Below, one piece after another: positions 39,886 to 46,270 of a stretch of DNA of 64,000 nt (within the stretch, counting starts at the first letter, position 1; every line of letters begins with the position of its first letter). The notes beneath the pieces were generated by a model that saw only the letters and a program-made list of their open reading frames with translations, made no database searches and was not told the origin of the DNA. Source of the stretch: Brevibacterium permense (GTDB lineage Bacteria > Actinomycetota > Actinomycetes > Actinomycetales > Brevibacteriaceae); NCBI RefSeq assembly GCF_013280495.1, contig NZ_JABSSX010000001.1, positions 1 to 64,000 on the forward strand. The letters are read 5' to 3'. The translations under genes were made by a program, and so were the position numbers.

Positions 39886-40473
39886 ATGTCACAGCGCGCA
39901 TTCCACCGTCCCGTTCCCCTGGCCGACCTCGACTCCGTCGGTGCCGTCGACGATCCCGTCGCCCGTTCGGAGACCTCGCACGCCACCGCGGCACTGCTGC
40001 TCGGCGATGCAGAGGGAAACCGCGACGAGGCTGCCACCAGGCGCTTCGTCGAACTCGCCGATGACATCGGCTTCGAGACCATCGCCGAGATGTGGTCAGC
40101 CGCTCCCGCGGTCTCCGCACCCGGCGCACTGTGGCGCCTCTACGCCCTGCGCCAATGGATCAAGTCCTCACCTCGCGAACTCGCCGAGATGTTCTCCGAC
40201 GGCCAACGCCGCGTCACCGAGGGCATCGGCTACGACGAGATCCTCGCCGGCGTCGAACTGCCCGCCGGACCCGATGAGGTGGCCCACGCCATCGACGAGA
40301 TCCTCGTCGGCGCCTTCCGCGGTGACGTCGTCATCGCGCTGCTGCGCGCCTCCGCCTTCGTCGGCATCTGCGCGGCAGGCACCGACGACCACGACACCGC
40401 CGTCCGCCTGCGCCAGCTCTCCCAAGACCTGTCCGACGCCGCGGTCGCCCATCGCCGAGGCGGCCTCGACTGA
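39886..40473 (+). CDS. Conserved actinobacterial hypothetical protein
   Basis: 195 residues, predicted all-helical, no signal peptide or membrane segment. Opens [20 protein letters not shown], with APGALWRLYALRQWIKSSPR and RRVTEGIGYDEILAGVELPA in the middle. I have the impression of a widespread actinomycete family of unknown function, sometimes misnamed as a polymerase subunit, and cannot name a domain. TAAACT ends nine bases before the ATG with no ribosome site, so a near-leaderless transcript is possible. Confidence 0.72.
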   Translation: MSQRAFHRPVPLADLDSVGAVDDPVARSETSHATAALLLGDAEGNRDEAATRRFVELADDIGFETIAEMWSAAPAVSAPGALWRLYALRQWIKSSPRELAEMFSDGQRRVTEGIGYDEILAGVELPAGPDEVAHAIDEILVGAFRGDVVIALLRASAFVGICAAGTDDHDTAVRLRQLSQDLSDAAVAHRRGGLD

Positions 40474-40645
40474 TCCTCAGCCCGCCGGCAATCCCCTCGC
40501 CGAGGCGGCCCCGCCCGACCGAATGAGCGCGGTCCCCGTCGGGACCGGATATTCCCGCCGGACCCCGATATCGACTGTGAGATTCTCAACGGACGAAGAG
40601 CCGCCTCGGCGGTGGATTCATGAGGATGAACGAGTATCGTAGGGA
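40474..40645. other. Intergenic stretch before the DUF47-PiT leader
   Basis: No coding frame is credible. It contains two copies of the recurrent word CGCCGAGGCGG (40498-40508 and, inverted, CCGCCTCGGCGG at 40601-40612). TATCGT near 40635 is a possible -10 box for the phosphate operon. Confidence 0.5.
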
Positions 40646-40749
40646 GTGGCCTTCGGGCCACCGGACGCTGGATCGCTGAAGCCCCGGGCTCCAAATTCAG
40701 CCGCTTCGAGCGGCCTTCCGCCGAGAGGCGCTCTCGGTTCAGCGTCCGG
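40646..40749 (+). ncRNA. Candidate structured leader RNA of the DUF47-PiT operon
   Basis: A UUCG-capped hairpin (GTGGCC TTCG GGCCAC, 40646-40661) is followed by a 10-bp closing stem CCGGACGCTG (40661-40670) / CAGCGTCCGG (40740-40749). The 69 enclosed bases hold three hairpins: GCTGAA/TTCAGC (40675-40680/40696-40701) over AGCCCCGGGCT, GCCGCT TCG AGCGGC (40700-40714) and CCGAGAG GCG CTCTCGG (40721-40737). The segments CGCTG and TTCAGCG each occur twice, so alternative pairings exist. Sixty-four bases later the DUF47 gene starts. No known riboswitch class was recognised. Confidence 0.55.
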
Positions 40750-40813
40750 CACATACCACCCAGGCATCATGCATATTCGTCCGGCTTGTCCGGGCCCCGG
40801 CCAGGAGGAGCGC

Positions 40814-41434
40814 ATGCGGCTCAAGCGGGTACCGCAGGACAAAGTGTTCTATGAGCGGTTGTCCGATCTCGTCTCACAGATGCGGCAGTGCAACCTGGTG
40901 CTCGCCGAACTCTCCGGAATCGAAATCAGCGAACGCCGCGATGTTGCCGACCGCCTCCGCGAGATCGGGGACAGGGCCGATGAGGACATGGGCGCGATGC
41001 TCCGCGCACTGCGCGAGAACTACATCACCCCGTTCGACCGCAACGATCTCTACCTGCTCAGCCACCATATGCGCGATATCTGCCACCGGCTGCACGGAGT
41101 CGGATACGTTCTCGCCTCCGGAGCTTTCGACCCGCTGCCCTCCGGCGTCCCCGAGACCCTGGCCGTGCTGTCGAATCAGACTGACCACACCTCGCGGATG
41201 ATCACCCGTCTGCCGGGCAAGCTCGACCAGTGGGACTACGTCGACGCGATCAACCGTCTGACCTACCAGGTCGAGAGCCTGCAGTGGCGGATGTCGGACG
41301 CGGTGCCGAACTCCAAACGGGGACTGACCTATATGGCAGCCGTGTCCCAACTCGGGCAGGCTTTCGTCCGGGCCGCCCACGGGTTCACCGAACTCGGCAA
41401 GGTCGTCGCAGCCATTGCGATCAAGGAGTCGTAG
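40814..41434 (+). CDS. DUF47 (PhoU-like) Pit accessory protein
   Basis: 206 residues from ATG 40814 behind CCAGGAGGAGCGC; longer in-frame starts run into the structured leader and are rejected. All-helical, PhoU-like: FYERLSDLVSQMRQCNLVLA, ADEDMGAMLRALRENYITPF and DRNDLYLLSHHMRDICHRLH (metal-binding-like Asp/His cluster). Such proteins are encoded with PiT transporters and are thought to control them. It ends three bases before the pit gene. Confidence 0.92.
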   Translation: MRLKRVPQDKVFYERLSDLVSQMRQCNLVLAELSGIEISERRDVADRLREIGDRADEDMGAMLRALRENYITPFDRNDLYLLSHHMRDICHRLHGVGYVLASGAFDPLPSGVPETLAVLSNQTDHTSRMITRLPGKLDQWDYVDAINRLTYQVESLQWRMSDAVPNSKRGLTYMAAVSQLGQAFVRAAHGFTELGKVVAAIAIKES

Positions 41435-41437
41435 TCC

Positions 41438-42451
41438 GTGGAGCTGCTCTTGGCGGCAGTCGTCATCGCCGCGGTGATCTTCGCCGGCTCGAACGGATTC
41501 CACGACGCCGCCCTGACCGTCGGCAACGCGGTCGTCGGACGAGCGATGCGACCCGGCTGGGCACTCAGCCTGGCCGTCATCTTCAACTTCATCGGTGCGC
41601 TCCTCGGTGAGGGAATCGCCATCGTCGTGGCCAATCAGATCGTGCTCTTCTCCGGTTCGACAGAACTCATCCTGACCACCCTGTTGATCGCCTTCGTCGC
41701 AGCGACGACGTGGAGCCTGTTCACCTACTATCTCGCGCTGCCGGTGTCGTCGACCCACTGTCTCATCGGCGGTCTGCTCGGCGCGGGAGTCGTGTTCGGG
41801 TTCTCCGTGAATACCGGTGAAGCGATGGACTCCGTGGTGTGGCCGCTGGTGCTCTCACCGATCCTCGGGTTCATCCTCGCGTGGGTGCTCACGCTCATCC
41901 TGTCGAAGTCGCTCGCGTCCACTCCGCCCAAGCCGCTGTTCCGGGGTGCGCGCATGGCGGACTCGGTGCTCACGGCGGCCCTGTCGCTCGTCCACGGCGT
42001 CCAGGACGCGCAGAAGATCGCGGCACTCGTCATGGTCGCCATTCTTGCCGTCGACACTCAGCAGCACGATGTCCTCTCCGTGGTCGACATCTCCTGGCCG
42101 GTGCGCCTCCTCATCGCCGCGGCTCTGGCTCTGGGCACCGGATTGAGCGGGTGGCGAGTGGTCCAGACGCTGTCCGTGCGCATGGTCCGCCTCGATCCCT
42201 TCAAATCCTCCATCGCCGATGGCGCGGCCACGATCCTCATGTACACCGCTGCCCTGATCATGCGGGTTCCGGTGTCGCTGACCTTCGTCCTGGGATCATC
42301 GATCCTCGGCACCCAATACGCCGGGCGCAAGGGCCACGCCAGAGCCCGGTACTTCGTGCCGATGTTCGCCGTCTGGCTTCTGACGATCCCTGCCGCCGCG
42401 CTGTTGGCCGTGGTGCTCGGGTGGATCGTCAAGGCCTCCGTCGGGCTCTGA
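41438..42451 (+). CDS. pit: PiT family inorganic phosphate transporter
   Basis: 337 residues, GTG start, about 10 membrane segments. The two inverted PiT signature repeats are seen: FAGSNGFHDAALTVGNAVVG near the N-terminus and ALSLVHGVQDAQKIAALVMV in the second half, with PVSSTHCLIGGLLGAGVVFG. It is a low-affinity, constitutive-type phosphate (metal-phosphate):H+ symporter. Cotranscribed with DUF47; the high-affinity Pst system lies 2 kb downstream on the other strand. Confidence 0.93.
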   Translation: MELLLAAVVIAAVIFAGSNGFHDAALTVGNAVVGRAMRPGWALSLAVIFNFIGALLGEGIAIVVANQIVLFSGSTELILTTLLIAFVAATTWSLFTYYLALPVSSTHCLIGGLLGAGVVFGFSVNTGEAMDSVVWPLVLSPILGFILAWVLTLILSKSLASTPPKPLFRGARMADSVLTAALSLVHGVQDAQKIAALVMVAILAVDTQQHDVLSVVDISWPVRLLIAAALALGTGLSGWRVVQTLSVRMVRLDPFKSSIADGAATILMYTAALIMRVPVSLTFVLGSSILGTQYAGRKGHARARYFVPMFAVWLLTIPAAALLAVVLGWIVKASVGL

Positions 42452-44286: not shown

Positions 44287-45066
<780 letters not shown>

Positions 45067-45121
45067 TGTGTTTCCTATCCGTGGAAATGGGTGAGTCTGA
45101 AGATCTGTGGGCAGTCGCCAG

Positions 45122-46270
45122 TCAGCGTCCGGCCTTCGGTGCGAGCACCTTCGCGATGATGCGGGCGAACAGGTTGAGCACCATGACGAGGGCGACGAGC
45201 ACGAGCGCTGCGGCCCAGGCGCGTTCTGAGCTGGCCAGGGCGGCGGCTCCCGGCGAGACCGGGCGCAGCTGCGAGTCGTAGATGAACGTCGGCAGCGTCG
45301 ACATCCAACCGGAGAAGAGGTTCCAGTTGAGTGTTTTGGCGAATCCGGCGGTGACCATGATGGGCGCGGTCTCACCGATGACGCGGGCGATGGCGATGGT
45401 GACACCGGAGAGGATTCCCGACACCGAGGTGGGCAGAACGATCTTCACGATCGTCTTCCACTTCGGCACGCCGAGTGCGTAGGAGGCCTCGCGCAGGTCC
45501 ATCGGCACCAAGCGGAGGATCTCCTCCGTATTGCGCACGACGATCGGGATCATCAGCACCGACAGCGCCACGGCCGCGGTGAAGCCGGTCTTCGCGATTC
45601 CGGCCGCGCCGGGCAGGAGCACGTTGGCGATCGTGGAGAACAGAGCGAAGGCGAAGAGACCGGCGACGATCGAGGGGATACCGGTCATCACGTCGACGAG
45701 GAAGGTGATCGCCTTGCCCAGGCGGTTCTTGTTCGAGTACTCGACGAGGTAGATGGCGGTGAGGACGCCGATCGGAATCGAGATGACGCAGGCGGCGAGT
45801 GTGATGAGCACGGTGCCGACGATGGCGTGGTAGAAGCCGCCGGCCAGAGTGGCCTCACCGGCGATGTACTGCTGATCGAGGACGCCCTTCATGCCGAGCA
45901 TGGTGCGGGTGAGCAGGTCACCGCTGATGGCGGCCCCGCCCTTGGACACGGTCAGCCACAGCAGCGAGATGAGGGGAACGCATGCGAGGACGAACGTCGA
46001 GGTGACGATGGTGGTCGCGATCCGGTCGACGGCCTTGCGGCGGCCTTCGTAGGACGCGGAGACCGCGAACACGGCGATCGCGTTGATGAGGCCGGCGAGG
46101 ACGGCCACGACGGGTATGTTGAAGCCGCCGAAGGCGATGAAGCTGATGACGATCGCCACGAGGATCGAGGCGACGGCAATGATCCACGGGGTGGCTTTCG
46201 GGAGCTGTTTGGAGGTCAGCTTCGCCGGTTTCGACACGGCCGCCTCGGTGGTGGTGTTCATGGTGGTCAT
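45122..46270 (-). CDS. pstA: Phosphate ABC transporter, permease PstA
   Basis: 382 residues from ATG 46270 (GGGAAG nine bases upstream; a TTG at 46279 would add three residues). Six or more membrane segments: about three at 30-135, then the permease core [40 protein letters not shown] and [20 protein letters not shown] (EAA loop contacting PstB). Longer at the N-terminus than E. coli PstA, as usual for actinomycetes. It lies just after the pstC stop codon, so the genes are tightly coupled. Confidence 0.94.

Follow-up and report, generated by a model that had tools for sequence, protein, structure and literature searches.

The RNA described here, a conserved element of ~90 nt at positions 40660-40749 of the plus strand, is located 5' of a DUF47-PiT phosphate-transport operon of Brevibacterium permense (GCF_013280495.1, NZ_JABSSX010000001.1, positions 1-64,000 of the forward strand; this whole stretch of 64,000 nucleotides is hereafter called the window). 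Judged from sequence comparisons, it is probably the product of an independently promoted gene for a structured small RNA of the Actinomycetes, usually present in one copy per genome, rather than a dedicated leader of the DUF47-PiT operon, because its downstream gene differs among loci or is convergent. The RNA was assigned to the plus strand because of G-U pairs in its closing stem and weak antisense scores. A preliminary description of this DNA had placed a structured leader in the untranslated region 5' of the DUF47-PiT genes, a location that is borne out, and 64 bases before the ribosome-binding site. The latter number is the distance to the ATG at 40814, and the Shine-Dalgarno sequence GGAGGAG, as read from the sequence, is found at 40804-40810 (plus strand). 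The DUF47 (PhoU_div-like) protein is encoded at 40814-41434 on the same strand; its Pfam match (PF01865, E=0.00068) is under the curated cutoff, and the protein is homologous to clear DUF47 proteins encoded 3' of the RNA in other genomes. It is followed by a PiT inorganic phosphate transporter (41438-42451, plus strand; PF01384, E=2.6e-54).

Folding energy alone is weak evidence of structure (z = -2.35 for a tight segment of 125 nt, z = -0.55 for 231 nt), and it is comparison among relatives that identifies a real structured RNA. The perfect 10-bp closing stem of the preliminary description, CCGGACGCTG/CAGCGTCCGG, is present (40661-40670 with 40740-40749, 69 bases between) and reaches 15 bp when two G-U pairs are included. 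This helix, P1, comprises 40661-40675 and 40735-40749 of the plus strand, and the conserved RNA ends with its 3' strand. In the genus alignment the stem is paired in 96% of the cells, and 8 of its 14 pairs have changed on both sides, in 57 cells versus 0-13 cells for slid controls. Its sequence is rewritten but stays paired, as in CCGGACGCTG/CAGCGTCCGG versus GGGTGCCGG/CCGGCACCC. The interior of the RNA varies too little within the genus for a covariation test. In a class-wide alignment of 93 diverse sequences, all 14 modelled pairs of P1 change on both sides. The P3 hairpin, GCCGCU-UCG-AGCGGC with a YNCGA loop (40700-40714, plus strand), is paired in 97% of the cells and exchanges C-G for U-A in 19 sequences. 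The P4 hairpin, CGCC-GAGA-GGCG with a GNNA-type loop (40719-40730, plus strand), is paired in every cell of the 93 sequences, and one of its pairs is changed on both sides. Besides recovering P1 and P3, a mutual-information scan of the same alignment revealed two additional pairs, G40681-C40731 and A40680-U40732, which occur as G-C, A-U, C-G, and U-A. The alignments were fitted to the structure of the models, which favours P1, P3, and P4, whereas these two pairs, termed P1b (40680-40681 with 40731-40732, plus strand), lie outside that structure.

Which of the proposed inner hairpins are conserved follows from the same data. The preliminary description had listed three of them inside the closing stem, and the 6-bp hairpin that corresponds to P3 is conserved. 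The 7-bp hairpin CCGAGAG/CUCUCGG has no covarying pairs and three pairs that are only broken; the conserved hairpin at this place is P4. The small hairpin AGCC-CCG-GGCU was dropped by RNAalifold in the 93-sequence alignment, and P1b takes its place; swapping this tiny hairpin for P1b raised the covariation score from 0.457 to 0.508. Compensatory changes, to which the earlier account had looked for support, are thus found in the closing stem and in P3, and not in the 7-bp hairpin. The final structure changes on both sides at 19 of 26 pairs and scores 0.508 versus at most 0.120 for slid controls, and this compensatory change in the class-wide alignment supports a conserved secondary structure. 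P1 is followed by an internal loop, the 2-bp P1b, and a junction that consists of a CCCCGGGnYYCA strand, P3, and P4. The joining strand, CCCCGGGCUCCA in the window (40682-40693, plus strand), remains single-stranded in the supported structure; by the consensus of the 93 sequences it is near-invariant, above all in its CCCCGGG core, and its variable letters are mostly pyrimidines (CUCC, UCCC, CCUC, CCCC). As had been noted, a UUCG-capped 6-bp hairpin, read from the sequence, occupies 40646-40661 (plus strand) of the window. It is shared by some relatives and is lineage-limited: several relatives lack it, and there the closing stem directly follows the -10 box. An ORF that begins with GTG (40646-41434) runs through the RNA in frame with DUF47, and the conservation might therefore concern the DNA or an encoded peptide instead of an RNA. 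This is hardly credible, however, because changes on the two sides of the stem are compensatory, relatives carry 2-nt insertions or deletions, 40 of 56 genus loci have in-frame stops between the stem and the start of DUF47, and the RNA is also present where the next gene is convergent.

The RNA is widespread. In a nucleotide search, each of the 57 genus genomes contained it, the most distant ones only as a core of ~60-90 nt with 81-96% identity. With a covariance model built from the genus sequences, a kind of search that the preliminary description had proposed for leaders of DUF47-pit operons, the RNA was found throughout the order (391 of 396 genomes, 108 of 109 genera) and was not confined to such leaders. 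Exactly one match was counted manually in 368 of the 391 genomes, a number that depends on the strict filters of the large searches, and the window's own genome also has one match. Within the class, a broader model with strict filters detected the RNA in 150 of 247 genomes, and a third model with sensitive filters in 28 of 40 sampled genomes. In a sample of the phylum searched with strict filters, none of ~270 genomes of other classes had a match, so that every match is inside the Actinomycetes. Although the models give rough E-values, full-length matches score 60-110 bits, values that are not borderline. When named genomes were scanned with a DNA pattern, at least 120 stretches were retrieved. 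Among the matches listed, all belong to this class going by their titles, with hosts such as Streptomyces, Kitasatospora, Nocardia, Mycobacterium, Gordonia, Bifidobacterium, Rothia, Arthrobacter, Kocuria, Cellulomonas, Microbacterium, Nocardioides, Geodermatophilus, and others. Copies also occur on plasmids of Arthrobacter, Gordonia, and Rhodococcus.

A promoter of its own is predicted for this RNA, with the start at the RNA 5' end. Across 132 loci, a TANNNT hexamer ends between -5 and +1 nt from the model start in 84, against a background of 0.13 per position, and a second, smaller cluster at -21 to -19 is seen where the 5' hairpin intervenes. In the window, the putative -10 box is TATCGT (40635-40640, plus strand), with a predicted start at ~40646; no strong common -35 element was found upstream of the RNA loci. 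The near-ubiquity of the RNA in the order, its spread in the class, the near-invariant core helices, and the predicted promoter together make strong selection very likely. Two further upstream elements are candidates for the binding of regulators. The first is the motif TGTGAGATTCTCAAC (40576-40590, plus strand; consensus TGTGAGATTyTCAAC), which is conserved in the window's Brevibacterium subclade ~60 nt 5' of the predicted start. The second, a candidate operator just 5' of the -10 box, is the dyad TTCATGAGGATGAA (40617-40630, plus strand), which in several relatives is kept with an exchange of TTCA-N6-TGAA for CTCA-N6-TGAG and in others is imperfect. The operator-like motif and the dyad suggest that transcription of the RNA is regulated. 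Also 5' of the RNA promoter, at ~40600-40612, lies a GCCGCCTCGGCGG hairpin, which in several genomes is found after another gene as well; such copies are present in the window's genome (L061:287-302 on contig C28) and in relatives (L058, L060). Upstream repeat matches in the same genomes (query positions 29-67) share only this short hairpin near another gene and are unrelated to the RNA.

The genes downstream bear on whether the RNA is a cis-acting leader, that is, a riboswitch or attenuator of DUF47-PiT that senses phosphate or metal, as the preliminary description had proposed. In the 129 loci with enough sequence, genes were assigned by a composition script, so that single assignments may be wrong. 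Of these loci, 41 have DUF47 as the next gene, 50 have another co-directional gene, and 38 have a convergent one. No other single neighbour is as frequent as DUF47, which recurs in at least 8 of the order's twenty numbered families; its frequency could reflect a functional tie in this part of the order. The RNA is followed by DUF47 after about 27-100 nt, without a terminator, in Brevibacterium and several other families. Because this also leaves too little room for a second promoter, the RNA must here be part of the DUF47 mRNA and form the 5' end of the DUF47-PiT transcript as well. However, the next gene is unrelated or convergent in 88 of the 129 loci, and whatever this gene is, the RNA persists, usually as a single copy in each genome. 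The other neighbours belong to aminotransferase, metallophosphoesterase, aldo/keto reductase, symporter, peroxidase, metallopeptidase, and malic enzyme families; no function shared by the proteins 3' of the stand-alone copies was found, nor did the 129 loci reveal the coherent, co-oriented target genes by which a riboswitch or attenuator would be recognised. The mutually exclusive pairings suggested for the switch fare no better. Both CGCTG segments and both TTCAGC segments are present in the window, but the alternative pairings tried are not conserved, and GCUGAA/UUCAGC shows no excess over shuffles, being paired in 75% of the cells compared with 75.3% in shuffles. Furthermore, a terminator-like hairpin with a T run intervenes between the RNA and DUF47 in Rothia (L138, L244) and in L136. 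With the predicted promoter of the RNA also considered, a leader that is in essence a DUF47-PiT switch is improbable, and one recurrent neighbour within the order is the whole evidence for a response to phosphate or metal. If the RNA is a cis switch of DUF47-PiT at all, this could only be an additional role in some part of the order.

Under the favoured reading, a stand-alone small RNA gene, hairpins downstream of many copies are candidate terminators. A strong hairpin occurs within 110 nt in 28 of the 50 loci with another co-directional gene, 23 of the 38 convergent loci, and 11 of the 41 DUF47 loci, with a T run in few, and in many stand-alone loci long GC-rich terminator-like hairpins start 5-12 nt past the closing stem. 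Not every copy among the loci examined is followed by an evident intrinsic terminator, and in the window no terminator-like hairpin was seen between the RNA and DUF47. RNA polymerase would start near 40646, and the RNA would fold co-transcriptionally. Its 3' end would be formed just past the closing stem, in many species by termination. In Brevibacterium the end may instead arise by processing or partial read-through, and the same promoter would also feed the DUF47-PiT mRNA.

We infer that the RNA acts in trans. Recognition of this trans-acting RNA by a conserved protein would be the most likely mode, with a probability of about even, and is favoured because the letters of P3, P4, and the joining strand are kept throughout the class, and not pairing alone. 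The main rival among trans-acting modes is an antisense function, in which the C-rich strand CCCCGGGnYYCA would pair with the Shine-Dalgarno regions of target mRNAs. The strand is suited to this function by being unpaired and near-invariant, and its mostly pyrimidine variable letters are complementary to purine-rich ribosome-binding sites. However, the class-wide conservation of the P3 and P4 sequences is not needed for simple antisense pairing, and CCCGGG is self-complementary, so that this mode appears rather unlikely. Returning to recognition by a protein, we tentatively consider the RNA a near-universal, usually single-copy RNA of the housekeeping type, which is part of a ribonucleoprotein and has been missed by the catalogues of RNA families, although this is somewhat short of probable. 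If true, the class would possess a housekeeping-type RNA comparable in spread to 6S or 4.5S RNA within it.

Stand-alone structured small RNAs are a familiar kind of gene; as an RNA family, the one described here appears to be new. In agreement with the preliminary description, which had recognised no known riboswitch class, Rfam 15 gave no match at the RNA, neither with curated thresholds over the whole window, where only a tRNA was found elsewhere, nor in a permissive scan of the RNA region. Likewise, no family was assigned at the RNA in five class-level loci, in 18 named loci, or in permissive scans of further members. A literature search by motif sequence found nothing relevant in open papers, and an earlier description elsewhere is possible. 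The Streptomyces member (L170, 1509-1601) is situated between a HelD-type helicase gene (assigned by eye) and a malic enzyme gene (NCBIfam). These flanks match the interval between SCO2952 and SCO2951, the latter of which we take to be the malic enzyme, and it is from this interval that scr2952 takes its number. scr2952 is reportedly an intergenic sRNA of S. coelicolor, described by Vockenhuber and colleagues in 2011. SCO2952 is named in a paper on HelD. Going by this location between the orthologues, the Streptomyces member may be scr2952, and single transcripts such as this one may have been seen before without the family being recognised. Both are intergenic and share the SCO2952-SCO2951 interval, but scr2952 is catalogued as a small transcript of Streptomyces, whereas the window's RNA is class-wide. 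According to one report, scr2952 is experimentally confirmed, conserved in more than half of the Streptomyces tested, and included in Rfam (PMC8388888); on the last point the results differ, as cmscan finds no family at the Streptomyces loci. scr2952 is absent from the main text of a RIP-seq paper on RNA polymerase-bound RNAs and is not mentioned in a paper on S. clavuligerus sRNAs.

Known RNAs resemble this one in part. 6S RNA and Ms1 RNA are likewise stand-alone, structured, and widespread, but they are much longer and built around a long hairpin with a central bubble, whereas the window's RNA is a three-way junction of ~90 nt. Ms1 RNA (scr3559) is the actinobacterial RNA polymerase-binding RNA (PMC11077062, PMC9130861). 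6C RNA, defined by two stem-loops with C-rich loops (PMC8388888), is also an actinobacterial small RNA with C-rich conserved segments. In the window's RNA, however, the C-rich strand joins helices, and Rfam gives no 6C match. Riboswitch leaders such as yybP-ykoY, NiCo, and M-box have in common with it a compact multi-helix junction, a near-invariant core, and a 5' untranslated position in some species. In contrast to them, the RNA is stand-alone in most loci and has neither a consistent downstream gene, nor a conserved alternative fold, nor an Rfam match. Among the Actinomycetes are antibiotic producers, gut bifidobacteria, and mycobacterial relatives, and the class gains a testable new RNA gene for which there are a covariance model, a consensus structure, and model hosts.

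Some lineages carry two to four divergent copies per genome (family f14 with G069, G086, G101, and G129; L175/L176; L182/L183), and one locus has a tandem pair 180 bp apart (L187:1188-1459). The extra plasmid copies of Gordonia amicalis pCP113 (L318:3980-4070) and G. hongkongensis pGo-1 (L321:3958-4049) each lie within a stretch of ~700 bp without annotated genes. The plasmid copy of Arthrobacter adjoins annotated DUF47 and phosphate transporter genes. Viral occurrence comprises one IMG/VR contig and one phage record, MT835541.1 (L320, 'Bacteriophage sp.', human faeces). The latter looks like an actinobacterial chromosomal fragment instead of a phage, in which DUF47-like and PiT-like genes come after the RNA. 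In the window, a co-directional gene 5' of the RNA (39886-40473) encodes a protein of 195 aa without a Pfam or NCBIfam match, and a protein that resembles it by eye precedes the RNA, DUF47, and PiT in MT835541.1. An ORF for a PstB-like ATPase (by eye) lies at ~44287-45405 on the minus strand, so that a high-affinity phosphate uptake operon seems to be located 2 kb from DUF47-PiT.
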